A DNA stretch of 62,113 nucleotides from Nitrospirota bacterium (GTDB lineage: Bacteria > Nitrospirota > Thermodesulfovibrionia > Thermodesulfovibrionales > JdFR-85). The DNA lies in assembly GCA_035873375.1 (NCBI GenBank), contig JAYWMQ010000030.1:1-62113 (forward strand), given 5' to 3'. Below the pieces are notes generated by a model, which worked only from the letters and a program-made list of their open reading frames with translations, was not told the origin of the DNA and searched no databases. This document shows, one piece after another, positions 1 to 18,003 of this stretch; position 1 is the stretch's first letter; each line of letters starts with the position of its first letter. The position numbers and the translations under genes were made by a program.

Positions 1-127
1 TTTTTAGATATTTTGCTCACTTGAAATGCCCCTTTCTTTGGTTATTGCGTTTCCCACGCTTCTTATTTTAACCAATAGATTCGGGGCATTTCTACCTCTT
101 ACTGCTTGTTTTTTGTTTTATTGCGCT

Positions 128-394
128 TCTTTAAGGACTAACGGCAGTACCGAGAGGTTAAATCAAACCCTACTTGATGAGTTTTATAAGGTGAATTTCA
201 GAAAGAAGGTGTATACCTCTTTAGAAGAAATCCAGGCCGACCTGGACCGGTTTCTCCACAGGTACAATACTCAGAGAACCAATCAGGGGAAACGCTGCAA
301 CGGTCGCACCCCTATGGAAACATTTACAGAGGGTCTTGACCTTTGCAGGCAATATCTTCATAATGGAGAGGAGGTGATAAAAGAAGCAGCGTAG
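128..394 (+). pseudogene. IS481-like transposase, C-terminal remnant
   Basis: The reading frame carries the C-terminal end of a DDE (rve) integrase core typical of IS481/IS3-type transposases: a TNGSTERLNQTLLDEFYKV stretch followed by a LHRYNTQRTNQG segment and a RTPMETF end. These correspond to the last catalytic Glu region and the C-terminal tail of the family. Upstream of about position 128 the frame turns into unrelated hydrophobic sequence, so the first two thirds of the protein are missing or frameshifted. It cannot be active as it stands. It marks the edge of an accessory region full of gene debris. Confidence 0.7.
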
Positions 395-471
395 TCAACA
401 ATACCGGAAGGCCGTTTGTAAACGCTTTTAGTGACTACCGCACCTTTGACCCCCTTGGATTGCCCTTTTTT

Positions 472-561
472 AAAGGCAACTTCACTTTTCATCGCATAAT
501 ATGCCCTTATCTGCTTAATACACCGCTCAATGCTATCTTTCTTGTTCAACACAATATCATT
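472..561 (-). pseudogene. HepT-like (DUF86) antitoxin/toxin fragment
   Basis: On the minus strand a short stretch reads NDIVLNKKDSIERCIKQIR and continues for about ten residues. This resembles the N-terminal helix of HepT-like (DUF86) proteins of MNT/HepT modules. The frame then runs into unrelated sequence and stops, and no MNT nucleotidyltransferase partner is seen. I read it as a truncated relic. Confidence is moderate because only about 30 residues match the family pattern. Confidence 0.4.
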
Positions 562-677
562 CCTACGTTATGAAACCTCCCGCTTTTCAATGCTTCCTTC
601 AGATATTTCCTTTTCTTTCATGCGGGTAATATCTCTTTATCAGTCAATCTCATCATAGACTAAGACTTGGTCATGGG

Positions 678-851
678 CATATAATAAAGCGATTAAGCCT
701 TTATTTGCAATAGGGCAGAGGGGAAAGAGCAAAGCGCATAGAGTATAGCAAAAAATTCAGGATAAGGCTGTCTTAATTGTCAAGATTCAACACTGACATC
801 AGCCTCTACCCTTGGCTAATATCCGGGATTAAAAGTAGCCTGTCCCCTTTT
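678..851 (+). repeat. Direct repeat, left copy (about 174 bp)
   Basis: This stretch is nearly repeated at 3377-3548 in the same orientation, about 88% identical by eye with a few 1-2 base indels. It starts with catataataaagcgattaag and ends with agcctgtcccctttt. The two copies bracket the antitoxin fragment and the MjaI-like restriction-modification pair. It has no convincing coding content. The rest of the gap 395-871 holds only the HepT fragment and nothing else I can recognise. Confidence 0.85.
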
Positions 852-871
852 CCTACAAGTTTGGGCGACAC

Positions 872-1114
872 TTGTCATCTTCGGTAATACTCGACATTAA
901 GGAGTACGAAAAACTGATGGATTATATTGAGGACCTTGAAGACGTTGTTGCTTATGATCGTGCTAAAAAAGCGGGAGGAGAGACAATACCCTTTGCCGGG
1001 GCCTTACCCCGAGCACTTTCTTATAAATTATACCATAAAAAAGAGTCTCAACCGTTAAACAGCTCGATAACCCGCTTGTTTAGAACCCTGAGGGCTGCTG
1101 CCCTTGAATCTTGA
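872..1114 (+). pseudogene. Phd/YefM-type antitoxin remnant
   Basis: Residues 5-41 of this TTG-started frame (VILDIKEYEKLMDYIEDLED, then VVAYDRAKKAGGETIPF) match the middle and end of Phd/YefM- or RelB-type antitoxins. Such proteins typically have an EYExLLExIEDLED...AYDxAK pattern. The N-terminal DNA-binding part is absent, the left repeat ends just before it, and the C-terminal half (from AGALPRA) looks unrelated. No toxin gene follows. This is best read as a truncated, probably inactive antitoxin left after rearrangement at the repeat. Confidence 0.45.
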
Positions 1115-1161
1115 CAAATAATCGTATATCGGGTTCCTTGCCCCCTGTTTATCTGACGAAG
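1102..1161 (+). repeat. Weak direct repeat, left copy
   Basis: About 60 bases here align with 3299-3360 at roughly 70% identity by eye (shared words gaatc, gacaaa, aatcg, gtttatc.gac). It lies outside the restriction-modification genes on their 3' side, as the partner lies outside on their 5' side. It may be an older, more decayed member of the same flanking repeat family. The match is weak and could be partly chance. Confidence 0.35.
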
Positions 1162-1275
1162 TGGATTTGATAGGTGGGATACGGAATTTCAAACAACTTT
1201 TGAAAATGCATTCAACTTCGCTGAAGTAATGTGTGCAGTTGACCAGGACACTGCCAACCCGGAATCTCGTGTGTG

Positions 1276-1872
1276 TCAAGGAGCCAGTTCTTCAATGTCT
1301 ATAATAATGCCATCTTTTACTTTATTGTAGTAAATTATGTTTACTTTAATATTTTCATTCAACCCTCTTTTGGATTTATAGGACGTGGGCTTAATACTTA
1401 CCGGTATATTTCCTATAATACCGTCAATTCCTGCGGACTCTTCCTCTGGTGTTGCAAGACGATAGGTTGTCTTCAAAAGAATGGCTACTTTACTTAAAAC
1501 TGCTTCTTGAAATCTCAGTCCAATAAATGTTTTGACAATTACTAAATCTCTAACCCATTGTCTAATCATCTGCTCATCTATGTTGTTTATCACTTCCTTG
1601 AAGTTTTTGATCATCCCGGAAATCTTTCTGGTAGCATTCTCTATAGCTTCAGGATGTTGTGCAAGATACCATCTCTCCCATTCTTCCAGTGTTTTTCCTG
1701 TAAACTCCTGTATCAACTCGCTCATTTGTCCAACCACAGCGGGTCTTGTTCCCTGTGCATTCTGATTCGCAAGATTGATAAGTTGTGTTGCATACTTAGG
1801 AAATTCAACCGGCTCAGTGCCTAATAAGGTTCTGATGTCATTGTTTGAGATTTTAATTTGCTTCTTCACCAA
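1276..1872 (-). CDS. MjaI-like type II restriction endonuclease
   Basis: A 198-residue protein with the recognisable pattern of the MjaI family of type II restriction enzymes (family prototype MjaI cuts CTAG). Visible family stretches are EFPKYATQLINLANQNAQGT near residue 23, VGQMSELIQEFTGK near 47, and ATPEEESAGIDG near 140. Asp150 in GIDG followed by SIK (Lys161) resembles a degenerate PD-(D/E)xK centre. The start at 1872 overlaps the end of the upstream methyltransferase gene by 20 bp, so the pair is one operon with the methylase first, which protects host DNA before cutting starts. Specificity for CTAG is inferred from the family only. Confidence 0.85.
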   Translation of the reverse strand: MVKKQIKISNNDIRTLLGTEPVEFPKYATQLINLANQNAQGTRPAVVGQMSELIQEFTGKTLEEWERWYLAQHPEAIENATRKISGMIKNFKEVINNIDEQMIRQWVRDLVIVKTFIGLRFQEAVLSKVAILLKTTYRLATPEEESAGIDGIIGNIPVSIKPTSYKSKRGLNENIKVNIIYYNKVKDGIIIDIEELAP

Positions 1873-3172
1873 CTGTCCTTTTTTCTATGAATGAGGAAAA
1901 TTTGTTCTTATATTTAAAATCATATTCTGTATCAATATCACAGAATCCGTGTTTTATCAGGTGAGCATTGATAAAAGTCTTGTTTTTCATATATACATAT
2001 GCCATCAAGACATTATCGGTGTCGTATTTTACAGAATCGAATCTTAAATAAACCTGTCTCTTTAAAATCTTCCTTGATAAAAATTCCATTGCCTGCTTTT
2101 TTCTATAGTTTGGCTTTATACCGAGCAGCCTGACATGAAGACCGTTGGATAATTTGATTAAATCAGGAGCAATTAACTCGGAAACGGTAAAGTATTCTCC
2201 ATTTTTGTTGCCATTACCTTTATCCTCCATACTGATTTTGGAGCCAAAACTTAACTTTTTGGGATCAACTTTTTTGTCAAATGTAACAGGGTCATGGAAA
2301 ACATATCCGAGTTTTTCAATTTCTCTTTTCCAATCAACCTCTTTTCTTTTCTGTTCCTTAACAACAAAGTCATATTTATTGTACAGGGGCAGTTCATTAT
2401 TGCTTATCTTATCTTTAATGACCGGAATAAATTCCTTATTGATTTCATATCCTACGGAACTACGATCAGTCATTATAGCTGCATAACTTGTGGTCCCACT
2501 TCCTAAAAAAGGATCCAATACAGTTTCTCCCACAAAGGTGAACATTTCAATCAACCGTTTGGGTAGTTCTGCCGGAAACATAGCGATGTGTTTGTCCTGC
2601 CTTACACCGTTGAAATACCAGTGACCTGAAAAATACTCTTTCCATTTCTCCTTGTCTATCCTTGATTGCTCCTTAATCTCCGCAGGCACCGGTGGAGCCT
2701 TTCCGGGTTTTTTGAATAACAGAATAAACTCGTAATCTATTTCGATGATTCCGTTTCTTGGAAACGGATACGAACCCATTACACTTGCCCCGCCTGTAGT
2801 ATTCATTGTTGTCTTCTTCTGCCAGATAATGGCTCCCATATAATCAAAACCAATCGTTTCACAAAATTTAATTATTTCAGTCCTGATTGGAATTACCTTG
2901 TAGCGTCCATAATAGACTGATCTTGCAAATTGATCTCCAATATTGATAGCCATCCTGCAGCCAGGATTCAAAACCCTAAAACACTCTTTCCAGACAAGAT
3001 TGAGATTATTTATATAGTCTTCGTATGAGTCATTAAAGCCGATTTGCTCCTCTGAACCATAGTCTTTCAGTTGCCAGTAAGGAGGGGACGTAACAATTAA
3101 ATGGGCAGACGAACCTTCTATGTCGTCCATTCTTCTGGAATCACCTATTATACAGACGTGTTTTGTCTTCAT
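1853..3172 (-). CDS. DNA methyltransferase (N4-cytosine type) with C-terminal SNase-like domain
   Basis: Partner of the MjaI-like endonuclease. TSPPY (residues 28-32) is the catalytic motif of amino-methyltransferases, in the SPPY form usual for N4-cytosine enzymes. DPFLGSGTT (220-228) is the AdoMet-binding motif and lies after the catalytic motif, giving the beta-class order. After a linker, residues about 327-425 resemble a staphylococcal-nuclease fold (LIKLSNGLHVRLLGI, then VYLRFD, LMAYVYMKNKTFINAHLIK), but the Glu after the RLLGI strand and the Arg of the YGR segment are not present, so nuclease activity is doubtful. I chose ATG 3172, preceded by ggtaagagagag, over an upstream TTG at 3226. 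Confidence 0.85.
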   Translation of the reverse strand: MKTKHVCIIGDSRRMDDIEGSSAHLIVTSPPYWQLKDYGSEEQIGFNDSYEDYINNLNLVWKECFRVLNPGCRMAINIGDQFARSVYYGRYKVIPIRTEIIKFCETIGFDYMGAIIWQKKTTMNTTGGASVMGSYPFPRNGIIEIDYEFILLFKKPGKAPPVPAEIKEQSRIDKEKWKEYFSGHWYFNGVRQDKHIAMFPAELPKRLIEMFTFVGETVLDPFLGSGTTSYAAIMTDRSSVGYEINKEFIPVIKDKISNNELPLYNKYDFVVKEQKRKEVDWKREIEKLGYVFHDPVTFDKKVDPKKLSFGSKISMEDKGNGNKNGEYFTVSELIAPDLIKLSNGLHVRLLGIKPNYRKKQAMEFLSRKILKRQVYLRFDSVKYDTDNVLMAYVYMKNKTFINAHLIKHGFCDIDTEYDFKYKNKFSSFIEKRTVGEEAN

Positions 3173-3298
3173 CTCTCTCTTACCTATCAAATACCGGGAG
3201 AAGTTGCTCCTTAAAAATATCTGCAAATGGCTGCATTTCTAACAATCGACTCCGGAACATAATTGTTTCAAGTTGATATTGAGAATCCCTTGGGTCAG

Positions 3299-3360
3299 CC
3301 CTGAATCCGGACAAACAATCGAATACCAACTGCCTTAAGCCCTTCGTTTATCAGACAAAA
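3299..3360 (+). repeat. Weak direct repeat, right copy
   Basis: Partner of 1102-1161 (about 70% identity by eye). It ends about 16 bp before the right copy of the strong repeat. Together with that repeat it fills most of the non-coding stretch 3173-3579, in which I see no gene. Confidence 0.35.
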
Positions 3361-3376
3361 ACAGGAAATTTATCAT

Positions 3377-3548
3377 CATATAATAAGCGATTAAGCCTTT
3401 ATTTGCAATAGGGCAGAGGGGAAAGCGCAAAGCGCATAGAGTATAGCGAAAAATTCAGGATAAGGCTGTCTTCATCGTCAGGATTCAACACCGACCTCAG
3501 CCTTTACCTTTGGTAAACCCGGGATAAAAAGCAGCCTGTCCCCTTTTT
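3377..3548 (+). repeat. Direct repeat, right copy (about 172 bp)
   Basis: Second copy of the sequence at 678-851, same orientation, about 88% identical by eye. It ends in agcctgtccccttttt, 31 bp downstream of which the type III res gene terminates on the opposite strand. The pair of copies would permit excision of the 2.5 kb between them by homologous recombination, or may mark the ends of an inserted cassette. Confidence 0.85.
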
Positions 3549-3579
3549 AATCTCTGTGTGGAGAAAACGCGTCACGTCT

Positions 3580-6300
3580 TCAATCCTTTCCATGGCTGTC
3601 GATCGCCTGTCCCTGAGATGTATGGGTACACCCGGCCATCAGGCCGGACAAGCTCATTTGTTCGGATATCCGATCATGAGGAATCAAGAGATACGTCCAT
3701 GGCTTGCCGCCACAAGTCTTTGCGTGAACTGTTGCATGTTCACACCAGACGGCGGCCGCATCAGCCTTTGACTGGACAACATCGTCTGAAACTTCGGAGG
3801 CGCGCTTGGGCTCGCAGAGGAATTTCCCGGCTGTAGTCTCAACGACAAAATCCGGTTCATACGATTCATCGTGGCTGTAGTGAATCCGAAAATCGCCCTT
3901 AGCGGGTTTGAACCACTTGAGGATATTTTCATCGTTTTCGAGGATTACCGCAAAACGCCGCTCCGGATCGGAGTCAAACTTCTGTACCGGATACAGACAT
4001 TTCTGAAAGCCGCCGAAAAGCATCGAACCAATCCGGTTTTTCTCGCCGTCCGGGATCGGAGTCCTGAAGTCACGAACCGCTTGATCCACAACGATCGTGT
4101 AGTTATTAGAACGCAAGGTCCGAAAACCCTTGGTAACACGCGCCTCATAGGACGCAGCCGTTTCCGCGAAATGCTCCTGCATTTGGGAGTGGATCAGGTT
4201 CACCAGGGCTTGCCGGTGGTATTGCAGCACATTCACAACGTCATCTTCTTCGCTCAGGTAGGAGCGCAGGTGTGCAAGGACCTGAGCAGCCAGCTTGTAA
4301 AGTAATGCCGCGTGGTCGTCATAACTGATATCATTGAAATCGATCAACCCGCTCACCAGGTAATCTTCCGGCCGCCTCTCCTCGACCACACCTGATCCAT
4401 CGTGTAGCCTGTACCTTTGCATGTCATGCAGGTGCTGGATTAGAATGTCCTGCGCTACGGGTTGCTGGTTGATGTTCCTGGTGTCCAGATCGAAATCTTT
4501 GTATCCGGCTATCACCTTGCCTTTAGGCACTACCACAATTTTCGGAATGTCAATGGACATTTTCTGATATAACTCCACGGTTTTCTTCACGACATTTGAG
4601 ACGGTATCTTTGCCGAGACTGTCATACAGGAGTCCAAGCCCGGGCCGGGCGATCTCCTCAACCTTCCTGATGATTTCCTCCTGGGTCTCCGCATCCTGAA
4701 GTTGCCTGCTGCTGCTCAGTCCTTCAAATTGCCGGATAACCTGAAACGTTGCCTTAGCCACTTCATGCTCTTCCGGTTTCTCGAAGAGGCTGCGTTCCGG
4801 AGTCTTCTCTTTTTCTCCAGCCTTCTGCGGAGATGCAGAGATGATTTTCACAAACTCGGGTTCGACGATCACCGCCTTCTTACCCGCCTCAGGGATATCC
4901 TTTCCAATGACCACGCCGGTACGAATGATCGAGTCAGGATCGTTGGCGTGATCAATAATCTCCTGAAACCTGTCGTGTGATACGATGGTCAGTCGATCCA
5001 CAGCCGGAACTCCCACCCGTTTGCCATAGGGCAAACGCAGCCCCCGGCCGATGGACTGCTCCACCAGGGTCCGGGAGTTTGCTGCACGCAACGGAACAAT
5101 GGTATAGAGATTCGTAACGTCCCAGCCCTCTTTGAGCATATTGACGTGGATAACGACCTCGACCGGATTTGCCGGATTTTCAACGTTCAGCAACTGCTCG
5201 ACGACCTCGTCTTTTTCTTCGCCGCGCATGTTCGAGTGGACGGTGATCACCTTGCTCTTATATCTCCCCTCGAAAAACTCGTTAGCTTCCATAACTTTAT
5301 GCAACATATCGGCGTGCATTGTGTCCTGGGCAACAACCAGCATGAACGGCTTGACGATCGGCTGGTCATTGTTTCGGGCGTACACCTCCAGCTCAACCTT
5401 CGTGTTCTCGTGAATCCGAACACCGTCTTCAAGCTTGATCTTCTCCAGGCCTTCAACCGAATAGTTTGCGGCATCGAAGTTCTCCCGTGTGGCCACCGCC
5501 GGTTCCTTCACGAAGCCATCGGTCATCGCACTGCTCAGGGGATAACTGTAAATCACATTCTTAAAAGGCTCGGAGCGCCTGCCTTGCTCCACCTGTGGCG
5601 TGGCGGTCAATTCCAACCCAAGAATGGGCTTCAACTCGTTTATCGCTCGCACTCCAGCGCTGGCACGGTAGCGATGCGATTCATCCATCAGCATCACCAG
5701 GTCGTCCAGCCCGGCAAGGTAATCGAAATAACTCTGTCCGATGTACTCGCTCAAACGCTTGATTCTCGGGCTCTTGCCGCCGCGTACTTCACTGTTGATC
5801 TTCGAGATATTGAAGATGTTGACATGAATGGAATCATGATTCCCGAAAAAATCAGATCCTCTGAGACCGCGTCCGCTCTCGTAGTTATCTCCGGTGATGA
5901 TCTCCGGCGGGTTGACCGCAAACTCGGAGATGCCCTGAAAAACATACTTCGGCGTGTTTGGCGTGAAATCGGCAATCAGCTTATTGTAGATTGTCAGGTT
6001 CGGGGCAAGCACAAAGAAATGACGGATGCCCTCGCTCAGGCACAGGTAGCTGATAAAAGCACCCATCAGCCGTGTCTTACCGACCCCCGTGGCAAGGGCA
6101 AAGCAGAGGGAAGGGAAATCACGCTCGAAGGCTTCTATGGTCGGAAATTCGGGTTTGATCGTTTCCAGGGCCTTGGTGGTATCGCCGTTTTTCTCAAGGG
6201 AGATAATTTCGCACACACGGGCCAGAATCTCCAGCGAATCCCGCTGCGGAGAACGCAGGCTCAGGCGGTTGCTGATGGCGTTGACGTGTTGAATGCTCAT
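3580..6300 (-). CDS. res: Type III restriction enzyme, Res (helicase-nuclease) subunit
   Basis: A 906-residue superfamily 2 helicase/translocase with a C-terminal nuclease, the ATP-dependent cleavage subunit of a type III restriction system. Walker A is ATGVGKT at 70-76, the DEAD-box-like Walker B is DESHR at 206-210, and helicase motif VI is SIGRGLRLP in the middle third. Near the C-terminus, PDF at about 816 and EPK at about 830 form the PD-(D/E)xK nuclease centre. The length is close to EcoP1I/EcoP15I Res. Its ATG overlaps the stop of the RhuM gene by four bases (ATGA), so it is translationally coupled as the last gene of the operon. It would act with Mod as a complex. Confidence 0.92.
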   Translation of the reverse strand: MSIQHVNAISNRLSLRSPQRDSLEILARVCEIISLEKNGDTTKALETIKPEFPTIEAFERDFPSLCFALATGVGKTRLMGAFISYLCLSEGIRHFFVLAPNLTIYNKLIADFTPNTPKYVFQGISEFAVNPPEIITGDNYESGRGLRGSDFFGNHDSIHVNIFNISKINSEVRGGKSPRIKRLSEYIGQSYFDYLAGLDDLVMLMDESHRYRASAGVRAINELKPILGLELTATPQVEQGRRSEPFKNVIYSYPLSSAMTDGFVKEPAVATRENFDAANYSVEGLEKIKLEDGVRIHENTKVELEVYARNNDQPIVKPFMLVVAQDTMHADMLHKVMEANEFFEGRYKSKVITVHSNMRGEEKDEVVEQLLNVENPANPVEVVIHVNMLKEGWDVTNLYTIVPLRAANSRTLVEQSIGRGLRLPYGKRVGVPAVDRLTIVSHDRFQEIIDHANDPDSIIRTGVVIGKDIPEAGKKAVIVEPEFVKIISASPQKAGEKEKTPERSLFEKPEEHEVAKATFQVIRQFEGLSSSRQLQDAETQEEIIRKVEEIARPGLGLLYDSLGKDTVSNVVKKTVELYQKMSIDIPKIVVVPKGKVIAGYKDFDLDTRNINQQPVAQDILIQHLHDMQRYRLHDGSGVVEERRPEDYLVSGLIDFNDISYDDHAALLYKLAAQVLAHLRSYLSEEDDVVNVLQYHRQALVNLIHSQMQEHFAETAASYEARVTKGFRTLRSNNYTIVVDQAVRDFRTPIPDGEKNRIGSMLFGGFQKCLYPVQKFDSDPERRFAVILENDENILKWFKPAKGDFRIHYSHDESYEPDFVVETTAGKFLCEPKRASEVSDDVVQSKADAAAVWCEHATVHAKTCGGKPWTYLLIPHDRISEQMSLSGLMAGCTHTSQGQAIDSHGKD

Positions 6301-7358
6301 TTTGAACCATCCTTTTGTTTTAATTCCTTGGCAGCTTTCTCCAGTTGTTTGATGGTTTCTGCTTCGCCGATAGATTCTTTGTATGCACGACGACGAATTT
6401 CAAACCGATCGTATTCCGCTTTTGCGTGTCTTTCGGCAACCCGCTTGCTCACCTTGCCCGCATTGGGAAGCACATTACGGTCATTAAAGCGTAAAAACTC
6501 ATCAAGTTTTTGCTCCCAATCTTTCATAAAAACCTGCTTGCGTCGTTTGGCCTGATCTTCAGCAAAATCCAGCCACATCACCACAATTCGGTTCAGCTCG
6601 TCTATTTCCTCTTCATTAAGGTAGTTTTTGGCTGTGGTGACATCGGTTTTGCGTACTTCTCCCACCTTCCAACTGGTGAGGCCCATATTAGGGAACAGAT
6701 GATCAGCGCGTGACTGAATCAGTTCGGAGGCGGTCATACCGGTAGCGGCAAAATGAAGCTTGTTCTGAATGATGCTGAAGAACTTTGTGGTTTCGTTCCA
6801 TGACGGATCATAATCGCCCGCCATGGCGAATATTTCTTTCACCCGCAAATACATCCTCCGTTCGCTGGCGCGAATGTCACGAATACGGGCCAGCATCTCA
6901 TCGAAATAGTCGGGAACAGCGGAACCCTTGACCGGCGGATTTTTCAGCCGCTCATCGTCCATGACAAAGCCCTTGATAATGTACTCTTTCAACTGCTGGG
7001 TGGCCCATATCCGAAAGCGGGTGGCAATCAAGCTTTTCACCCGGTAGCCCACCGAAATAATCATGTCCAGATTGTAAAAATCCAGCTCACGCCGAACATT
7101 CCGCTTCCCCTCCCGGCGAACCGACAAGAATTTCTTGTGAGTTGCCTCCGGGGTGAGTTCCCCTTCCTCAAAGACATTCCGAATATGCTGGCTGATATTC
7201 TGCTGGGTGGTTTGAAACAACTCAGCCATCAAGGGCTGTGTCAGCCAAACGGTTTCATCCTGTAGCTGCACATCAAGCCTCACTTGCCCGTCCTCGGCTT
7301 GATAGATAAGGACTTCCCCTGTCGGGCCACCTTTTTCGTGATTTTCGTACTTGCTCAT
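6297..7358 (-). CDS. RhuM-family protein
   Basis: A 353-residue member of the virulence RhuM family. Family hallmarks are visible: a VWLTQPLMAELFQTTQQNIS stretch (residues 37-56) that looks like a Bro-N/KilA-type DNA-binding head, RRELDFYNLDMIISVGYRV in the first third, and a charged, helical C-terminal third. RhuM genes are frequently found inside restriction-modification loci, but their biochemical role is not settled. It sits between mod and res with ATGA overlaps at both ends, so it is made in step with both subunits. A regulator or DNA-binding accessory role is inference. Confidence 0.88.
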   Translation of the reverse strand: MSKYENHEKGGPTGEVLIYQAEDGQVRLDVQLQDETVWLTQPLMAELFQTTQQNISQHIRNVFEEGELTPEATHKKFLSVRREGKRNVRRELDFYNLDMIISVGYRVKSLIATRFRIWATQQLKEYIIKGFVMDDERLKNPPVKGSAVPDYFDEMLARIRDIRASERRMYLRVKEIFAMAGDYDPSWNETTKFFSIIQNKLHFAATGMTASELIQSRADHLFPNMGLTSWKVGEVRKTDVTTAKNYLNEEEIDELNRIVVMWLDFAEDQAKRRKQVFMKDWEQKLDEFLRFNDRNVLPNAGKVSKRVAERHAKAEYDRFEIRRRAYKESIGEAETIKQLEKAAKELKQKDGSK

Positions 7359-9037
7359 TGGTCACCTTCCATGTCAAACAGCGCGGTCTGGTCCGCTTTA
7401 CCCTTACCAAACTTCCGCAGAGGCTTCACAGATGTTTCCTCTTCAACATTCCGAACCGGAAGGTTCTCAACCTCCAGGCTGTAATCGTCATGGCCCCACT
7501 CGCATTTCTTCAAAACCGCCTTGGGTATCTTCTTGATGGTAAGGTTGGGAAAGCGGCTCGGGTCACACCGGAAGGCAGAGCAGCAGATGAGCAGGCTGCG
7601 CTCCGGCCCGACCTCATCGCTGAGACGGACCAGCATATCCCTGCTCATAAACTGAGTCGTCACGTAAAGAAAATCCGTCTCCGTGCTCTTGCCGTGAATC
7701 CAGTAGACATCCTCACTGGGTGCGTACTCAAAGCCCTCCAGCTTGCACATGGCCTCGGCCAGCATGGCTGCGTTGAAGTCGGAATTGATGACCGGGTTAC
7801 CCCATTTGTCTTTGACGATAAGCGACGGCCCCAACCGGTAGTAACGGAAACCGCCGCCGCCTTTCCAATTGACGGCCTTAGTGATGCCGCCGGGATCTTC
7901 GCCGTCGATAACTTTTTTCAGGCGGGGAATGATGTGGGTGTGACAGTGTTCTCCCAACTCCACCATGATCCAACGTCGGCCCATCTTGTGGGCGACTGCG
8001 CCTGTCGTGCCGGAACCCGCAAATGAATCTATCACCAAATCACCTGGATTCGATGCTATTTCGATTATCCGGCCTATTAGTCTTTCAGGCTTTGGGGTAT
8101 TGAAGGGTTCTTTTTCCGGGAATAACGCTAACTGCTCTTTCTTAGCCTCCTGATTGTTTCCGCTACTCGTATGATCCCACCATGAATCAGGCACGATGCC
8201 CTGCTGAACTTCGCTCAGGAATACCTTAATCCGAGGCGTTCTGTCTCCTTTCGCTCCAAACCACAGTCGATTTTCCGCTATCAACGCCTCAGTACGGTCC
8301 GGCAAACCGTTCCAATGCCGTCCCTGTGGTGGATTGGCTTCACCGCCTGCAGGTTTTGCAATTGGATATCGATAAGCTATCCGACGCTCTGCGTCTTCTG
8401 ATTGAACAGAATAGGCCACACTCTGCCATGGCCCCCTAGGATCATTGTCAGGATTTTTGAAAGCTTTAGTCTGGTCTTCTGATCTGGAGAGTAAGTTCCT
8501 TTTCCATTTCCCAAACTCTTTGGCATATACAAGAATAGTATCATGGCTACTAGAAATTAAAGCCTTGTTCTTCCGCGCAAACACCTTCTGCCATATGACA
8601 CTTGAAACGAAATTCACTCGCCCAAAGATTTCATCAAGCACTATTTTGCAGTAATGAACCTCGTTATCATCCAACTGTAGCCACAGCGATCCATCCATAG
8701 AAAGCAGACGATGCAAAAGTTCAAGGCGATCACGCATTAACGTTAGCCATAGCGAATGCTCAACACCATCATCGTAGTGTTCAAAAGCACTGCCTGTGTT
8801 GTAAGGAGGGTCTACATAGATACACTTAACATTGCCCGCAAACTCTTGCTCCAACGCCTTGAGCGCCAGCAGATTGTCGCCGAAGATCAGCCTGTTGTCG
8901 AAGATGTCGTTTTCACTATGACGTTGAGCCGCGTGGTAGGACTTCTCCTGGTCCTCGATCAGGATGCGAGGCTCCAGCTTGGGCCGAACATTCTTTCCGA
9001 TCCAGGTTAATTCTAATTTTATTTTTTTCTTTGACAT
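7355..9037 (-). CDS. mod: Type III DNA methyltransferase, Mod subunit
   Basis: A 560-residue beta-class adenine-N6 methyltransferase, the modification and recognition subunit of the type III system. DPPYNTG at 76-82 is the catalytic motif, and FAGSGTTG at 339-346 the AdoMet-binding motif. The region between about 150 and 300 would contain the target recognition domain. The C-terminal 200 residues include a domain that many Mod proteins carry for contact with Res. It starts 12 bp after the stop of the subtilisin-like gene and its stop overlaps the start of the RhuM gene, placing it in the middle of a five-gene operon. The recognition sequence cannot be read from the protein. Confidence 0.92.
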   Translation of the reverse strand: MSKKKIKLELTWIGKNVRPKLEPRILIEDQEKSYHAAQRHSENDIFDNRLIFGDNLLALKALEQEFAGNVKCIYVDPPYNTGSAFEHYDDGVEHSLWLTLMRDRLELLHRLLSMDGSLWLQLDDNEVHYCKIVLDEIFGRVNFVSSVIWQKVFARKNKALISSSHDTILVYAKEFGKWKRNLLSRSEDQTKAFKNPDNDPRGPWQSVAYSVQSEDAERRIAYRYPIAKPAGGEANPPQGRHWNGLPDRTEALIAENRLWFGAKGDRTPRIKVFLSEVQQGIVPDSWWDHTSSGNNQEAKKEQLALFPEKEPFNTPKPERLIGRIIEIASNPGDLVIDSFAGSGTTGAVAHKMGRRWIMVELGEHCHTHIIPRLKKVIDGEDPGGITKAVNWKGGGGFRYYRLGPSLIVKDKWGNPVINSDFNAAMLAEAMCKLEGFEYAPSEDVYWIHGKSTETDFLYVTTQFMSRDMLVRLSDEVGPERSLLICCSAFRCDPSRFPNLTIKKIPKAVLKKCEWGHDDYSLEVENLPVRNVEEETSVKPLRKFGKGKADQTALFDMEGDQ

Positions 9038-9049
9038 TACTGGTATCTT

Positions 9050-11383
9050 TTATCGCTGAACACGTGCACGTACTCGCTCCTGCAAGCGGTTGCGAAGTTG
9101 CGTGAAAAGTCGGGCGCTTTCGTTTTCTCGGTCACGAAAACACACTACAAGTGCATACGGCTCTTCTATGTTTGTCAATCCTTCACCCCACGGTTGGTCG
9201 CTACGAGTAACGATCACAAACAAGCGCTGATTACGGAGTTTTGATCGGGCATTAAGTTGTCTGAAACACCATGTAGCATTTTGCACGGTGCCCTTGGATC
9301 GTATAGTCGACCCCAGGCTTGCGCCCGATAACTCCGGGATACTCTTGTATTCATCTTTAGGAGTAGCTCTGTTGAACATTTGTGTAACCTGATCTAAGTC
9401 TGTCGCTGTCACTAACCGGAATTCGATACGCGATGCCTTATAATCGATACGCGTGGATCGCACAGGCGGCAAATAAGCCAGCGCCACAGTAAGTTCACGC
9501 TCCCGTCGGCCTGAAGTGATGAAATCATCTGGCACAGGAACTTCATAGAAATGGTGCCGTTTATCTCTGAGTGTATCCTCGGCAATCAGTGTGACATCGT
9601 TTTCAATCGAGCGGAGCAATGCACGATCATCTACCTGACCATAGCCACATATTTGCCTGAGTTTATCAGCATCGGGTAACAGGTTGGTGCAAGACGCAGG
9701 GATTACAGCATGTGATACCAGTAAGGCCCTAACAAGATTTACCCCGGATTCGGGGTTTTCTTTGAGTAGCCGTGCACATAGGTATGCAATATGCGGAGCA
9801 GCAAAACTGGTTCCACACTCTTCGCCGAACAATCGCCCTACCGCAAACTCCCTATTTGTCGATAACTCCCCCAGGCCTTGTTCAACAATACGAAAACCAG
9901 CGCGAGTGCTGACCGCCCAATTACCACCATACGCAACCAATTCCGGTTTAATAGCGCCTGCCAGTGATGGACCACGACGGGTAAAGGGCGACGGTTGATT
10001 ATGTAACGCGATTGGCACCTCCGCGGGATCATCGGGATAGCGCTGGCTGTTGAAATCCCTGTCCCAGCGCGCAAGACTGCCTACAGTCAGAACATTCAGC
10101 GCCGTTGCCGGATCGATAAGTGACCAGTCATCATTGGTTAGATAGTCAGGGTACCCATTCCTCCAGTCCTGACCGTTTTGCTGATTCGGTGATACATTCC
10201 CTGCCGGAACAACAAAGACCACACCGAGTTCTCGTGACAAGCTATCCAGTGTAACCGCCAGACCCCGAACATGTCCTTGACGATAGGGTTTGCGAAGATC
10301 ACCGAAAGAAAGATTGAATATCCGGCAACCATACTCCTGATTAAAGTACCTGACCGCTTCGTTTATGTGGTTTTCTACAAACCCGGTCTCGTTGACATTA
10401 TCATCATCGAGAATGCGAGCGCTGAACAGGCGGAACTGGGGTATGAAAGCCCCGGTACGCAGGGTTTCCTCGACATCCCCATAAAGCGCCAATCCCGCGA
10501 TATGTGTACCATGCCCGGTTCCATCTGCATCGGGCATACCGGGTATAAAACTCTGCGCTTCACCCATTGCCGGCCCCAGCAGGGGATGGCCAGTTGCAAC
10601 GCCACTATCAAGGATCGTTATGCCCGGAGCATTATCAGGAGGCTGGGGAACTGGTGGCAAATCAGAGATCTCAGTGCCAAATAAGTCCATATCCAGGCCA
10701 TAACGCGGCGGTAAATCGACAGTACGCACATCCCGGTGATGCAATAGTAGATCGGCTTGTTTCCTGTTAACGCGAAGACGGTTGAGCAGCAGGCCGGGTT
10801 GATTTACAGAATCGAGCTGCTCTATCCCGTTTTGCTGCAACCAGCCCTCAAATGCCTGTCGTAATTTACCGCTTTCAGCCTGCGTAGCCAATGGCCACAA
10901 CTCAACATCTATCACAAATTCTTCGGTATCGGGAAATCCTTCCTGCGTTAGCGCCCAGCCGCTACGGTCTTCAGCCTTCCATCCATCAACACCTTGCAGG
11001 GCATAGATGAAAGTTCGGTTGGTCGGTTTTCCACCTTCTGCCAGAGTGCTCAAACGGGCTTCGAACTCTTCAACAGCCGCTTCACTTGCAAAAGCCAGGA
11101 TGATTGTTTTCTCTTCCTGACTTATCAATTCGATACCGCGTGCAAGGCGTCGAATGTCATCCGGGTTAAATCCCGGCTGCACTTCGAAACGGAACAATCT
11201 GCGCTCATCGAACCCACCAATATCTTCTTCCGCTTGTTCCTGTGCTATATGGAAAGAGTCCTGAAGCTTATGTGCGTGCTCCAGAGGATCTTCGGGGACC
11301 TTAAACCTGGGTGGTGGTTTAGACCTACGCTTATTGATCGGTTCTTCACGAGAAATTCTCAAGTGAGGATAATTTTCATCCAT
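9050..11383 (-). CDS. ietS: Subtilisin-like serine protease, IetS-type
   Basis: A 777-residue S8 family protease with a complete triad: Asp259 in ILDSGV, His291 in GTGHGTHIAG, Ser526 in GTSFAAPH, and the oxyanion Asn396 in PAGN. There is no signal peptide, so it should act in the cytoplasm. About 250 residues precede the catalytic domain and about 200 follow it. Its start lies 6 bp after the AAA ATPase gene. This AAA plus subtilisin pair matches the IetA/IetS module, known as a plasmid stability and incompatibility system of the Agrobacterium Ti plasmid and later reported as antiphage. IetS would be the toxic effector, held or triggered by IetA. The family assignment rests on architecture and gene pairing. 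Confidence 0.85.
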   Translation of the reverse strand: MDENYPHLRISREEPINKRRSKPPPRFKVPEDPLEHAHKLQDSFHIAQEQAEEDIGGFDERRLFRFEVQPGFNPDDIRRLARGIELISQEEKTIILAFASEAAVEEFEARLSTLAEGGKPTNRTFIYALQGVDGWKAEDRSGWALTQEGFPDTEEFVIDVELWPLATQAESGKLRQAFEGWLQQNGIEQLDSVNQPGLLLNRLRVNRKQADLLLHHRDVRTVDLPPRYGLDMDLFGTEISDLPPVPQPPDNAPGITILDSGVATGHPLLGPAMGEAQSFIPGMPDADGTGHGTHIAGLALYGDVEETLRTGAFIPQFRLFSARILDDDNVNETGFVENHINEAVRYFNQEYGCRIFNLSFGDLRKPYRQGHVRGLAVTLDSLSRELGVVFVVPAGNVSPNQQNGQDWRNGYPDYLTNDDWSLIDPATALNVLTVGSLARWDRDFNSQRYPDDPAEVPIALHNQPSPFTRRGPSLAGAIKPELVAYGGNWAVSTRAGFRIVEQGLGELSTNREFAVGRLFGEECGTSFAAPHIAYLCARLLKENPESGVNLVRALLVSHAVIPASCTNLLPDADKLRQICGYGQVDDRALLRSIENDVTLIAEDTLRDKRHHFYEVPVPDDFITSGRRERELTVALAYLPPVRSTRIDYKASRIEFRLVTATDLDQVTQMFNRATPKDEYKSIPELSGASLGSTIRSKGTVQNATWCFRQLNARSKLRNQRLFVIVTRSDQPWGEGLTNIEEPYALVVCFRDRENESARLFTQLRNRLQERVRARVQR

Positions 11384-11389
11384 GAATGA

Positions 11390-12376
11390 TTACGCTCCTG
11401 CTACACGCTGGCGCCGTGCACCCTCACGAATAACGGCCGCTTTTATGTGCCGCTCACACAGAAACTCATGTTTAGCCAGCACCATATCTTTTATTGCGCG
11501 ACGCAGGACCCGCTCAATATCTGCGTGGCTCGTGCCCTTGAATAGTTCAAGCAATTTAGTGGACTCCAACTCGAAATCACGGCGCACCCCGCGAAGTTTT
11601 ATTTCCACCAAACAACGGATCTGCTCCATATTGGGAAGGTCGAATACAAGTACTTCTTCAAATCTGCGCCATACCGCCGAATCCAGAATTCCTTCATGGT
11701 TAGTAGCAGCAATCAGTATGCTCTGCCCTTGGTAATCATCCATCATTTGCAAGACCGAATTGACAACACGCTTGAGTTCACCATGCTCTGCACTGTCGGA
11801 GCGCTCCTTAGCGACTGCATCAAACTCATCAAACAGCATGACCATGGGCATAGTGGAAGCAAAATCAAAGACTTTGCGGAGGTTTGCCGCTGTTTCGCCT
11901 AAATAAGATGAAACAACACTGTCAATCCTCACAACGGCCAGTGGCCTTCCAAGTTCGCTGGCCAGAATTTCCGAGGTCAAAGTCTTGCCGCATCCCGGTG
12001 GGCCACAGAAAAGTAATCTATCCGCAGGTTCCAACCCATAACTGCGTAGTAAATCCTCGTGATGATGCTCCGCAAGAATCTCGTCAAACTGAGCACGATT
12101 TTCTTCTGACAAAACGACATCTTCCAACCTGCGTGTCGGCTCCTTCATCGCAAGCAAGGGCAAGCCGCGTTCCTTGTCGGACGGGACGTTGTTTTCTCCA
12201 ATATTGCGGTAGGGTCGTGGCCGACCGTAGAGTATCTTTTCCAGATCATTCGCCAATAGATGATGCTGTTTGGCGCGCTCCTCCCGGATGACCTCTTCCG
12301 AAACGCTGCGGAATGCGTTCAAATTGCCCTCCGCACCTGATTTTATTAACTGTCTCAATAACTTGCCACTCGCCAT
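11390..12376 (-). CDS. ietA: AAA ATPase, IetA-type partner of the subtilisin-like protease
   Basis: A 328-residue AAA protein: an N-terminal region of about 90 residues, then Walker A GPPGCGKT (125-132), Walker B LFDEFD (181-186), a sensor-1 ATNH and an arginine-finger-like WRRF. The fold resembles the FtsH/spastin branch of AAA proteins but lacks any fused protease. It starts with ATG after a strong ggaggtgagct ribosome site and is the first gene of the operon that continues through ietS, mod, rhuM and res. In IetAS modules the ATPase is the antidote or sensor controlling the protease. The gap of 151 bp upstream (12377-12527) is the likeliest place for the operon promoter. Confidence 0.85.
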   Translation of the reverse strand: MASGKLLRQLIKSGAEGNLNAFRSVSEEVIREERAKQHHLLANDLEKILYGRPRPYRNIGENNVPSDKERGLPLLAMKEPTRRLEDVVLSEENRAQFDEILAEHHHEDLLRSYGLEPADRLLFCGPPGCGKTLTSEILASELGRPLAVVRIDSVVSSYLGETAANLRKVFDFASTMPMVMLFDEFDAVAKERSDSAEHGELKRVVNSVLQMMDDYQGQSILIAATNHEGILDSAVWRRFEEVLVFDLPNMEQIRCLVEIKLRGVRRDFELESTKLLELFKGTSHADIERVLRRAIKDMVLAKHEFLCERHIKAAVIREGARRQRVAGA

Positions 12377-12527
12377 AGCTCACCTCCTCACGCCATTTTT
12401 AACCTTATTGAATTATAACCCAACATACCCCAATATGTTCACGCATGGTCTTTTCTCTGTACATAAAAAAACACCGATTTGTGCGTATCCCTAAAGCATA
12501 GGTTCGGAATCCTTCGTATCCTGATTA

Positions 12528-13823
12528 TTAGCCATTATGTCGATCCTCCTCGCTGCTATCCGGTCCCTCTATCAAGGTAAGCCCCTCAATCTCCTGCAAC
12601 GTCTTTCCCGCAATGCCCTGCAAATCCCCATACATCCCGACCGTTGCCTGCATTACTCGATTGATCTGCTCGTCCCGCTTGGCCCATTGTTTCATGATGG
12701 CCTTTCTTTCCTTGTCGAGATCTCCCTGCATGGTGGAAAACGCCTCGACAATGGCTTCCACGCGCTGACGGAAGCGCGGACCGGTGAGATACTGGTAGAT
12801 CATTTCCGTTTTGGTTTGTTGGCCTTCATTGGACTTCCGGGCCAATGCCACCTCGATCAGAGACTGGCGCAGGATTGCCGCCACGGGTAACGTAGAACGT
12901 GGGTGAGTCACCCAGACACCGTCTATTGTTTCAAACGTCTCCACATCTTTCGGCAATGCCTAGCTGATGATAACGGCAATTTCAGCTTTTGCAGTGCGCT
13001 GATCCTTGCGCAGTTTTGGTAACCAGGTATCGCTCCAGTTTTTGGTGCGCTTGGATTCCCACAGGATCGTACCGCTGTGCTGTCCGTTTGCACCGACAAC
13101 CCGTTGAACGACATCGCCGCCGAATTCACCCTTTGGGACCGGTTCGATGGTGTCGAACGGAAACTTGCTGCGCAACAGGTCCTCAAGCTCCAGTTCCTGC
13201 ACTTCACCCTGTAATTGCTGCGAACCTTGTTCTGCGCGATGTTTGAGCTCTTCAATCTTTTTCTGCATAGAAGCAATGGTCTGGTCTTTCTCCGCGACCT
13301 TTAATTTCAGTCCTTCTTCGGCCTCTTTTTTCGCCTGCTCGCGGGTTGCCGTCAAGCCTTCCTGCACACGTTTTTCGATGGTCAAATCCATTTCACGTTT
13401 GGCATCATCCAGCTCTCGTTGTTTCCTGATCAGCTCGGCCTGTGCTTTTTGTGCTTCCGCGAGCTTCTCGTTGCGGATTTTAAGCACCTCCTCCAAATCG
13501 GCCAATTCTCGTGTCTTTTGTTCCAGGTCAGTTGATACCGCCAGTTTGGCCTTCCTGGCCTCTTCGGTTGAAATTCTTGCGCGATCCTTTTTCAACTGCT
13601 CTTCAACCTGGCCGGCTATCTTCTCATCAAGCTTGTTTTTGGTCTCGTCTAACTGTTTTTCCTTTTCACGAATGGCCTGTTCACGTTGAGCAATATCGCT
13701 GTCTTTCTGCGCGAGTTGCTGCTTGAACTGCCGGCGGGTGGACTCAATCAGAGGAGCGGCCAGAGACTCGGTGAGCTTGATCTCCGTTTTGCAGTTGGGG
13801 CAGATGATTGTTGGTTCCGTCAT
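12528..13823 (-). pseudogene. DUF2130 nuclease-like protein interrupted by an in-frame amber codon
   Basis: Both halves belong to one DUF2130 protein of about 431 codons. Residues 1-287 hold an N-terminal CPNC zinc-type motif (CPNCKTEI), a long charged coiled coil (about 30-215) and a PD-(D/E)xK-like core (GGDVVQRV...ILWESKR). A TAG codon at 12962-12960 follows AEIAVIIS, and the same frame continues ALPKDVETF to a normal C-terminus. Family members usually have a glutamate or glutamine at that spot, so one base change explains it. The first part keeps the ESK motif and might still fold. Its ATG overlaps the stop of a 43-codon ORF. Confidence 0.85.
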
Positions 13824-13951
13824 AGCAACTTCTGGACTTTCATTGCATTTATGATCTCATACCTGTCGCCAAAAAGGATATTCTTGGCACATTCCAGATT
13901 GATTCGGCAGCAGTCAGCGTTGCTGGGTAGAGGAAAGGTCATCTTGTGCAT
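13820..13951 (-). CDS. Small 43-residue ORF coupled to the DUF2130 gene
   Basis: ATG at 13951 follows a near-perfect ribosome site (aggaggtatttc, 6-base spacing). The frame runs 43 codons (beginning MHKMTFPLPSNADCCRINLE, ending AMKVQKLL) and its TGA overlaps the ATG of the DUF2130 gene as ATGA. Good start context plus the four-base overlap argue for real translation. I do not recognise the product. It has two adjacent Cys (14-15) and one more at 21, and no membrane segment. It could be a leader that couples expression, a small partner protein, or the tail of a decayed gene. Confidence 0.55.
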   Translation of the reverse strand: MHKMTFPLPSNADCCRINLECAKNILFGDRYEIINAMKVQKLL

Positions 13952-14020
13952 GAAATACCTCCTATTCTTCTTAAATGAATCACTTTTCACAGCAACTGTT
14001 TTTTAAGTCCTCTGTGGATT

Positions 14021-14119
14021 TTACTCATCATTCACTAATGCCTGCCCGGTAGAGCGTTTGAACTCGACACGCTCGGACTCGCCGCCGAAAACCGGGTCTT
14101 TCAGTTCATGGACATTCAT
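14021..14119 (-). pseudogene. Schlafen/AlbA_2 domain N-terminal remnant
   Basis: A 32-codon frame from ATG 14119 reads MNVHELKDPVFGG and then ESERVEFKRSTGQ. This is the typical N-terminal signature of Schlafen-type AlbA_2 DNA-binding proteins (GGES..VEFK.S). It stops right after the signature, so more than 90% of the usual gene is gone. It is another relic at the edge of the defence island. Confidence 0.55.
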
Positions 14120-14284
14120 ACGTTTCTATCCGTATTCGGAGTCATTATCCATCCCGGACATCTCTCCCTTGTGTGCACAACTACCCCATCATGCACAAAT
14201 TCTCCCGCACTTGCTTATTCTGTTTGAGTAAACAGTTTATAATACCTTAAGTTGAGGGGTTAATAGAAAGAACAAAGGAAAGGA

Positions 14285-14440
14285 ACACACCCCTGCACCC
14301 CTCTTGATAGAGGGGAAAATACAGGCCTTGCAGATAAAGGGCGGAACGAGGTAAGGGGCGGTCTGCAAGATAGTGAAAAACAGTTATGAGAAAGCAGGAA
14401 GTGTGCAACTCCCCTAAAAAGAGGGATCAGGGGGTGTGTG
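14285..14440. repeat. MITE-like element with hairpin-forming inverted ends
   Basis: Two arms of about 30 bases, 14285-14315 and 14411-14440, are imperfect reverse complements of each other (acacacccctg... against ...caggggg tgtgt). Each arm also folds on itself (cccctcttgatagagggg on the left, cccctaaaaagaggg on the right). The 95 bases between them do not code. This is the layout of a small non-autonomous mobile element or repeat unit. It is the only structure I see in the gene-free stretch 14120-14513. Confidence 0.55.
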
Positions 14441-14513
14441 AAGGGGCAGGAGATATGTAAGATGGGATGAACAGTAAACCAAACGCATGATTAAAAAAAC
14501 ACAAGACCAGCCT

Positions 14514-14915
14514 TTATAAATTCCGCTTTAACTCCTTAAACAACTTGTCCTTTTCACACGCTCCTCTCCAGTCACATTCTGTACAGTATAAAGAAAACCA
14601 TACCGGAAATATTCCGGGCATCTTTCCCCTGAGAGTCTGCCATTTGATCCTGCTGCCGGGTGAAAGGCCGAGGAGTTCGAGTGCCTTTGAATCCATATCC
14701 CGAATCTCTTTATCGGCGTTCCCGTTATACTCACACCTGCCCTCTTTAAGCCAGGGACAGTGCGTGCATATATCGTCAGCGCCGGAGGAAACCGTGATCT
14801 CTTCCTTATCCGTAAGGCTTAGTGTTTCCTTTAGATTCTCGATAAATGCCTCATCGTATCCCTCTCCGTGGAAGAAGCGGAGACAGATGAGGTGGTGTCC
14901 TCTCAGTATCGGCAT
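14514..14915 (-). CDS. DUF1284 domain protein, possible metal-binding
   Basis: A protein of about 133 residues with the DUF1284 pattern: LRGHHLICLRFFHGEGY near the start, then ICTHCPW, GRCEY and DSKALELLGL. The cysteines (ICTHC, RCEY, and YCTECDWRGAC at the C-terminus) suggest a bound metal or iron-sulfur cluster, an inference. I place the start at the ATG just before PILRGHH, 13 bp downstream of the stop of the HD-domain gene. A TTG at 14951 with a caggaat site in front would add 12 residues and overlap that gene. Function unknown. The two genes appear to be one unit. Confidence 0.75.
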   Translation of the reverse strand: MPILRGHHLICLRFFHGEGYDEAFIENLKETLSLTDKEEITVSSGADDICTHCPWLKEGRCEYNGNADKEIRDMDSKALELLGLSPGSRIKWQTLRGKMPGIFPVWFSLYCTECDWRGACEKDKLFKELKRNL

Positions 14916-14928
14916 GGGAGCTCTGATA

Positions 14929-15726
14929 TTATTTGATCCTGGATAATGCAAATTCCTGTAAAAAGACGGATAACCTGCTGATGCTTTCCGTCTGTGGCAG
15001 GTGTGCGATTATCCTTTTTATATATCCCCTGTCCAATAGCAGGGCGTATGAAGTCCTGAAGTGGAGATCGTATATCCATGAAAGCTGTACAAGCTTGTAA
15101 TCATTCAGCGACTTGACCTTTGACAGGGGCACCACCTGCTTTCTCAAAAGATATGAAAAGACTTCTTCTGAATATCCGGGCAGTTCAGGCAATCCGATAC
15201 CTGCTGCCGATGCCCTTTCGGTTTCACTGCTTTCAAAGTACTCAATAAAGACCCGCCAGATGTCCAGTTTGTCTGCATCACGTATTAATTTTAAAAAAAA
15301 CTCCTTTTCAGGGTTTTTCAACTTCGGAATTGCAAAGGCATTATGAAACTTCACGGCATCTGTAATAATCTCCTGCTCATCCGAAGGAAATTCTTTAAGA
15401 AGCCCCTTGCTGGTGATAATCCTTGCCCCAAGCTCAGCATGATTTACCGAGATGCGGTCATTAAATGTCTTGTACTGCGCATACTGTGGAAATCTACCTA
15501 CATCATGCAGAAGGGCTATAACCTCGGCCACCGGGATACTTGTTTGACCTTGCCTTTCCTCCCTTGCTATCTCTGTAATATTCCTGCATACCTTATACGT
15601 ATGCCTGATCTTGAGTGAGATATTTTTCCGGTCTTCTTCATTGGAGGTGTAAAATGACCGCGCAAAACGGGAAAACCACTTTCTTAAAGCAGTCAGCCGG
15701 GCTGTTGGTGAATGTAGATCAATCAT
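14929..15726 (-). CDS. HD-domain phosphohydrolase
   Basis: A 265-residue HD-superfamily protein with metal ligands in order: the His of RHTYKV (about residue 48), the HD pair in ALLHDVGRFPQY (about 94), an NHAELGA stretch and RDADKLDIWR (about 169). These form the metal centre of phosphohydrolases acting on nucleotides or phospho-compounds. The substrate cannot be deduced. It is first of a two-gene unit with the DUF1284 gene. No signal peptide, so cytoplasmic. Confidence 0.8.
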   Translation of the reverse strand: MIDLHSPTARLTALRKWFSRFARSFYTSNEEDRKNISLKIRHTYKVCRNITEIAREERQGQTSIPVAEVIALLHDVGRFPQYAQYKTFNDRISVNHAELGARIITSKGLLKEFPSDEQEIITDAVKFHNAFAIPKLKNPEKEFFLKLIRDADKLDIWRVFIEYFESSETERASAAGIGLPELPGYSEEVFSYLLRKQVVPLSKVKSLNDYKLVQLSWIYDLHFRTSYALLLDRGYIKRIIAHLPQTESISRLSVFLQEFALSRIK

Positions 15727-15928
15727 GATATTACACTTCAGAGCCGGGCCATTGCCGTGTCAAGGAGATAGTATGCCTGCTCTATGCTCTCCCATCCCGT
15801 CAAGTTGTCTCTCTGGTGACCTGTTACAAAAACATGTGGTTTAAAACTTAATAAGAATAACACAGAATGAAAACAGTTTCAATTTTTCAGATTTTTTTCC
15901 GAAATATTTTCTGAAGAGTCTTTTATAT

Positions 15929-15934
15929 TATAAT
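15929..15934 (+). promoter_or_regulatory. Predicted -10 box upstream of the ferredoxin gene
   Basis: A perfect TATAAT lies 45 bp before the ATG at 15980, in an A/T-rich stretch. The -35 candidate (ttttct or tttctg, 16-17 bp upstream) is weak. It is the best promoter candidate in the divergent gap 15727-15979. Confidence 0.35.
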
Positions 15935-15979
15935 AACTACCTTAAGGTCATCACAACAAAGACGGGTGAGGATTCAAGC

Positions 15980-16795: not shown

Positions 16796-16869
16796 CCCTG
16801 TTGAATGTCCTGCCCTGAGGCCGCAGCATATCCCCGTAAAAACAGAGAGATTTAGGATATAATTATCGT

Positions 16870-17962: not shown

Positions 17963-18003
17963 CTTAGTTGCAGGAGGCCCTACTCCTGTGAAGGAGGTAA
18001 AAC

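Follow-up and report, generated by a model that had tools for sequence, protein, structure and literature searches.

Is an IetAS protease pair that stands at the head of a type III restriction operon a working partner of the restriction enzyme, or a module that the operon merely carries? The question is raised by a five-gene locus, ietA-ietS-mod-rhuM-res, at positions 3,580 to 12,376 of a 62,113-nucleotide contig of a Nitrospirota bacterium (JAYWMQ010000030.1), the whole of which is referred to here as the window. IetAS is a two-gene protease toxin-antitoxin system and a known phage-defence pair, and the hallmarks of type III restriction are an asymmetric site, the need for two head-to-head sites for cleavage, and methylation of one strand. 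Our analysis indicates that IetAS most likely (with a probability of roughly 0.6) provides a second, abortive layer that is co-expressed with restriction and sits in the upstream slot of a type III operon, while RhuM occupies the slot between mod and res. The five genes are as follows.

11390..12376, minus strand: ietA, 328 amino acids (aa), AAA+ ATPase, antitoxin partner of IetAS (PADLOC IetA, 3e-101; also Pfam)
9050..11383, minus strand: ietS, 777 aa, subtilisin-like (S8) serine protease, toxin/effector partner (PADLOC PDLC02198, 2e-266; Pfam Peptidase_S8, 1e-40)
7355..9037, minus strand: mod, 560 aa, type III DNA methyltransferase (PADLOC MTase_III PDLC03636, 1e-220)
6297..7358, minus strand: rhuM, 353 aa, cargo of the mod-res slot (PADLOC PDC-S05, 1e-156; Pfam Virulence_RhuM, 2e-111)
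3580..6300, minus strand: res, 906 aa, type III restriction subunit with helicase and PD-(D/E)XK nuclease motifs (PADLOC REase_III PDLC03648, 3e-240)

An earlier reading of the locus, made from the letters alone (the sequence-only reading), had placed these genes on one strand with almost no space between them, and the coordinates confirm this: in the order of transcription the spacings are 6, 12, -4 and -4 bases, and both overlaps (mod/rhuM and rhuM/res) read ATGA because the downstream genes each begin with ATG. The position of ietA ahead of ietS, at a distance of 6 bases, fits the arrangement of an IetAS pair. Motifs could be checked in four of the proteins and are intact in IetA (GPPGCGKT as Walker A, FDEFD as Walker B), in Mod (DPPY and FAGSGT) and in Res (GVGKT, DESH and a C-terminal PDF..EPK of the PD-(D/E)XK type), and the catalytic Asp, His and Ser motifs of IetS are all present. 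The nearest solved structures to IetA are AAA+ ATPases of the NSF and p97/Cdc48 types, and those to IetS, among the matches listed (60 of 62), are generic subtilisins; the structure prediction for IetS itself was poor, with a mean predicted local distance difference test score of 39.5 from a four-sequence alignment. The G+C content of the five genes is 49-53%, against about 48% for the contig.

It had also been claimed that the locus leaves no room for internal promoters or terminators. This holds between the genes, where, because the ietA/ietS and ietS/mod junctions measure only 6 and 12 bases, there is no space for either element; within the coding sequence promoters or terminators may nevertheless occur. 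In window positions 1-15000, promoter-like sites numbered 27 (18.2 ± 5.0 in shuffled sequence) and terminator-like sites 17 (15.8 ± 4.5), both near chance. One of the better matches lies 5' of ietA.

12412..12441, minus strand: promoter-like site TGAACA-18-TATAAT, a 10-of-12 consensus match only, from a scan that is near chance

A second 10-of-12 match on the same strand falls inside ietS (10660-10631), and weaker promoter-like and terminator-like matches also lie within the five genes. From this layout, the genes probably form a single co-directional, co-expressed composite unit, in which a single promoter ahead of ietA would drive all five.

To what extent is this arrangement found elsewhere? 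An IetS model was run against 395 genomes from the phylum of the window, 398 from that of L036, a 9-kilobase contig assigned to an Acidiferrobacteraceae metagenome-assembled genome (MAG; G395), and 395 from that of L037, from a Desulfuromonadaceae MAG (G396). In all, 81 IetAS stretches were mapped (26 + 34 + 21 from the three phyla). Matches in the window's phylum were taken to an E value of 1.2e-9, leaving out G355 and G142 (37-40 bits; 1.6e-10 and 4.9e-10) and the weaker matches of 74 genomes; all places were covered in the phylum of L036, and 21 of 22 in that of L037 (the G1035 fragment was left out). Genes were called co-operonic when on the same strand with gaps of at most 150 bases, small and opposite-strand open reading frames (ORFs) being ignored in the chains; eleven of the 81 stretches have no IetA in the chain, some of them owing to contig ends or the overlap rule.

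Neither the exact five-gene order nor RhuM and IetAS in one operon was found in any of the 81 stretches except the window. The composite, co-expressed unit of the sequence-only reading thus stands as far as direction and probable co-expression go, and as a specific five-gene unit it was seen once; a fixed five-gene machine was rejected on the same grounds. The joined order that this reading had expected in other genomes does recur in the looser form ietA-ietS-(x)-mod-(x)-res, in five further genomes (L036, L040 of G117, L043 of G166, L056 of G193 and L058 of G282). In L036 a HerA-type domain protein separates ietS from mod and the contig end cuts res, and the type III system of L043 is distant from that of the window. 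Three more IetAS stretches hold type III genes (L050, L161 and L162, the last with the order mod-ietA-ietS-res), and eleven hold type I genes (L048, L069, L071, L072, L079, L091, L146, L147, L157, L158 and L163), as in hsdM-ietA-ietS-hsdS-two other genes-hsdR of L146 and hsdM-hsdS-ietA-ietS-hsdR of L158. Genes for DUF1156 and/or DUF499 proteins accompany IetAS in L054, L094 and L150. A sample of these calls was confirmed with PADLOC: L162 matched both type III Mod and REase_III (1e-17), L161 type III Mod, L158 the type I M and R subunits, L163 the S subunit, and L054 a Hma-like methylase and an ATPase. For the Res proteins of L161 and L043, PADLOC reported no match at 1e-15, and both calls rest on our own profiles; models seeded from EcoKI and the window label the L161 Res as HsdR-like.

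Proximity alone is weak proof of association, because defence genes cluster. We therefore compared the observed placements with a null in which, in each stretch holding a restriction gene, IetAS was re-placed at a random position and strand (20,000 draws), the null being generous in joining the IetAS block to its neighbours. The window, L036 and L037, as seed loci, were left out, and operon types were pooled, types I and III in both controls and DUF1156/DUF499 in the first. In the first control, IetAS was co-operonic in 21 of 27 stretches and nested, that is, with restriction genes on both sides, in 12, compared with null values of 7.8 ± 2.3 (maximum 16) and 1.9 ± 1.3 (maximum 8). Since the profile models of this control were partly seeded from loci with IetAS in the operon, it was repeated with outside seeds (EcoKI subunits and the Mod and Res of the window), which gave 19 of 26 co-operonic and 11 nested among 78 stretches in total; the null values were 7.3 and 1.8, and none of the 20,000 draws was as high. 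In these counts L058 is nested partly through a mod fragment, and L045 is gained in the repeat through an HsdM match only. The presence of IetAS in restriction operons, taken over the pooled types, therefore recurs beyond defence-island clustering. By the 150-base rule the window itself counts as co-operonic and not as nested: mod lies downstream, and the gene upstream, encoding a DUF2130 protein, is broken and 151 bases away.

What kind of operon receives the pair? Type III loci were collected mainly through Res, from 33 of 36 genomes of one survey (G189, G295 and G365 were left out) and 19 of 19 of the other. A long Res was present in 45 stretches, of which ten without a full mod were set aside, leaving 35 operons; L131 and L137 are absent from the maps, apparently because the overlap rule dropped the res ORF. 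These operons follow a common frame, SNF2 helicase-[slot]-mod-[slot]-res, in which the slots hold exchangeable modules. SNF2 lies upstream in 21 of the 35, and in L129, L135 and L136 mod follows it directly, the first slot being empty; DUF2130 is upstream of mod in 14 of 33 type III stretches. The first slot is filled by IetAS in four of the 35 operons and by AIPR in five (L109 by Pfam; L134, L141, L144 and L145 by similarity to L109), by SIR2 with HerA in L103 and L106, by a SIR2 protein in L133, by an OLD-like ATPase-TOPRIM protein in L065, and by other AAA or SMC-like ATPases elsewhere. The mod-res slot is occupied in 11 of 35, by DUF1016, Fic, RhuM or small genes, with RhuM in this position in L101. 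A HATPase_c_3 protein in L103 may be a MORC relative. AIPR, SIR2-HerA, OLD-like and Fic proteins belong mostly to families known from phage defence. The same frame is seen in all three plasmids taken from 105 matching records, two of them with Abi or AIPR cargo: a Roseomonas plasmid carries SNF2, 1.1 kilobases without a listed gene, mod and res, a Salmonella plasmid has SNF2-IS-Abi-small gene-mod-res, where IS is an insertion sequence, and a Deinococcus plasmid has SNF2-AIPR-small genes (including a vapC toxin)-mod-small gene-res.

Traces of exchange are visible at the edge of the first slot. Truncated mod 5' ends lie upstream of mod and ahead of the cargo in six of 33 loci (L040, L058, L065, L111, L114 and L115), and none was found in the window. 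A 3' fragment of SNF2 comes next after the mod fragment, immediately before ietA, in L058 and, less clearly, in L040; this junction is a recombination scar. The mod 5' fragments upstream of ietA in these two loci (L040 5038-5204 and L058 9359-9525, both in reverse-complement orientation) share one common junction sequence, and their IetAS pairs lie on distant branches, so that a common scar is coupled to different cargo.

Several single loci add to the picture of these operons. L150 carries, at 5352-12999, an operon DUF499-DUF2130-AAA (877 aa)-ietA-ietS; its AAA family (876-877 aa) and DUF2130 are also found in the type III operons L065 and L114, and cargo therefore crosses system types. The type I operons of L147 and L163 contain DUF1016 genes (hsdM-DUF1016-...) as well as IetAS, and one operon can therefore carry two embedded modules. 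A second, decayed locus is present in L039 of HyVt-429 (1295-2509), where a truncated ietA runs on, in frame, into the beginning of ietS; it sits between a gene that we take to be AlbA_2-like and a DUF2130 gene with a neighbour that is presumably DUF3800-like.

Has IetAS evolved together with these restriction systems? A tree built from concatenated IetA and IetS (76 rows, quick LG+G4, with a program warning of long branches meeting) shows the restriction link scattered, and its branches do not track restriction type. Type III required eight label changes and type I nine, every one of them forced by starred branches, against shuffled means of 8.7 and 9.6; these counts are of changes, gain and loss not being distinguished. 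The scatter therefore speaks for IetAS as portable cargo rather than as part of a co-evolved machine. IetAS is shown directly to be portable cargo by comparison of the window with its nearest relative, L036, because DNA identity of 87% extends from DUF2130 to a few bases short of the ietS stop (12998-9056) and, past the end of ietS, gives way to patches at about 70% (mod) and 78% (res). An obligate machine, or the functional linkage through a shared sensor that had been put forward for this locus, is not supported, because unrelated modules occupy the same slot, the link is scattered over many branches and the identity to L036 stops at the end of ietS.

The flanks of the unit in the window show how far it extends.

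12528..13823, minus strand: DUF2130 gene of the host operon, with an in-frame TAG at 12960-12962; both halves match the family in the same frame
1276-3226, minus strand: type II MjaI-like restriction enzyme and methyltransferase, G+C 37%, downstream of res

DUF2130 is uninterrupted in most relatives with full contigs, and its TAG in the window is possibly a recent nonsense mutation. The gene is separated from ietA by 151 bases, in which the promoter-like site lies, and in view of this gap, the site and the broken reading frame we judged that it does not belong to the transcript of the five. No match to SNF2 was found in window bases 1-20000. A short open stretch at 14022-14119 (minus strand) resembles by eye the start of an AlbA_2 (Schlafen-type) gene and is possibly a remnant, unreported by tblastn at 1e-3; an AlbA_2 gene precedes DUF2130 in some relatives (L102 and L111). 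On the other side, the MjaI system, whose methyltransferase has a C-terminal match resembling staphylococcal nuclease, lies 353 bases past res, and was rejected as a member of the unit on account of this gap and of its G+C content, 37% compared with 49-53% in the five genes. It looks like a separate acquisition.

How might the unit work? The reading that fits best is a layered defence, in which Mod-Res would cut unmodified incoming DNA as the first layer and IetA would hold IetS in check. IetS would be released when restriction fails to stop the infection, and the freed protease would degrade proteins of the cell or the phage, ending the infection. No dedicated physical contact between IetAS and Mod-Res would be needed; sharing an operon would let the genes be expressed and inherited together and would provide a ready landing site, and bacteria may in this way add a second line of defence to restriction. 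Several observations weigh against this reading. More than half of the IetAS stretches (52 of 78) lack a restriction gene of type I or III, seven more have such a gene that is not co-operonic, and no annotated type I/III gene lies near IetAS in four close plasmid relatives (of 547 matching records). In the window, the 151-base gap and the broken DUF2130 cut the unit off from the remaining host operon, and IetAS could be a simple addiction module. This last idea, that the pair stabilises the operon or a mobile element and plays no antiviral role with restriction, the operon being a permissive, expressed landing site, is a possible though somewhat improbable account. It agrees with the stabilisation of SGI1 by the related SgiAT pair (PMC5006074; statements from papers cited by such identifiers refer here to the available parts of their text). 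It is likewise in keeping with the 52 stretches that lack a restriction partner, with the exchangeable cargo of the slot and with the mod 5' fragments that mark recombination. The other modules of the same slots, however, are mostly the phage-defence families named above and not stabilisers alone, and the nesting of IetAS exceeds the island null.

A closer relationship, in which IetA or IetS senses restriction failure (an antirestriction protein, or a stalled or dissociated Mod-Res) and frees the protease, as PrrC does for EcoPrrI, is unlikely. In its general form, also doubtful, IetAS would be a guardian of methylation-based restriction (type I, type III and DUF1156/DUF499), blocked restriction unleashing a cytosolic subtilisin as the protease counterpart of PrrC, which cuts tRNA. 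The repeated placement of IetAS in all of these operon types is consistent with such a role, and a guardian role towards restriction has been described for PrrC and PARIS (PMC12707154). A guardian that reads restriction failure or a shared sensor is possible, but nothing observed points to contact between IetAS and Mod-Res, the IetAS branches do not follow restriction type (label changes near the shuffled means), 52 of 78 stretches lack a partner, and the high identity to L036 stops at the end of ietS. It is very improbable that IetAS is a built-in control that degrades a restriction subunit and shields the cell from its own enzyme, as in the reviewed case of ClpXP and HsdR (PMC12707154). An AAA+ ATPase and a protease do lie between modification and restriction genes in L157, L158, L162 and L163, but in SgiAT, the relative that has been studied, the toxin is the protease (PMC5006074), and the lack of tracking and the many partnerless stretches count here as well. 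Least credible of all is a chance insertion into a decaying defence island, with the joined order unselected, the outcome that the sequence-only reading had attached to a single occurrence. The TAG in DUF2130, the missing SNF2 match and the uniqueness of the five-gene order would suit it; it was rejected on account of the recurrence in separate branches and of both permutation controls, and the motifs of the four checkable genes are intact.

How does this locus compare with known systems? Like IetAS and SgiAT, the window has an AAA+ ATPase gene followed by a closely spaced gene for a subtilisin-like protease, and both match PADLOC models. SgiAT of SGI1 was found by experiment to be a toxin-antitoxin system with the protease as toxin (PMC5006074), and an operon of ATPase and subtilisin has been recorded in 15 host species (PMC3339403). 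The pairs of pTiC58 and SGI1 are described as stability modules (PMC5006074, PMC9035990), whereas that of the window heads a type III restriction operon. In SGI1-related elements, near a resolvase gene, AGI1 has a type II restriction pair where SGI1 and PGI1 have sgiAT (PMC9035990), and this swap is a further instance of IetAS and restriction genes replacing one another. Compared with type III Mod-Res of the EcoP15I kind, the window has the expected motifs and the order mod-res, but RhuM lies between the two genes and IetAS in front. SNF2 and DUF2130 are frequent in its host-type relatives, whereas in the window SNF2 was not found (1-20000) and DUF2130 is broken.

The mobile restriction operons of the MORC/AIPR type likewise combine SNF2 or Rad25-like helicases, methylases and AIPR, and AIPR was called common in restriction operons by Iyer, Abhiman and Aravind in 2008 (PMC2292703); in contrast to the loci described here, the available main text of that paper does not mention subtilisin, protease or Sir2. 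No published account of IetAS or like pairs in restriction operons was found in the open-access literature searched. To the extent covered by these searches, the repeated carriage of a protease pair by type I and III operons, with placement control, scattered origins and scars, is apparently new. The mechanism of IetAS was called undescribed in a 2023 survey (PMC9958689), and the pair now gains a recurrent class of genomic partner and with it a testable trigger, namely that restriction has failed or been blocked. The type III host operon, whose two slots gather modules of the suicide type, is also a convenient site in which to search for defence genes not yet known.

The closest parallel is with defences embedded in restriction operons, which are reportedly the subject of a 2024 preprint by Payne et al. 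As in PrrC within EcoPrrI and in the cases of that preprint, the window holds a second, suicide-type defence inside a restriction operon. Embedding in type I operons is a known trend, for which a 2024 preprint is cited (PMC12629846), and embedded PrrC and PARIS form a second layer behind restriction (PMC12707154). As expected of embedded cargo, IetAS of the window is co-directional and tightly spaced with the host subunits; in contrast to PrrC in EcoPrrI, a protease pair forms the cargo and a type III system the host.

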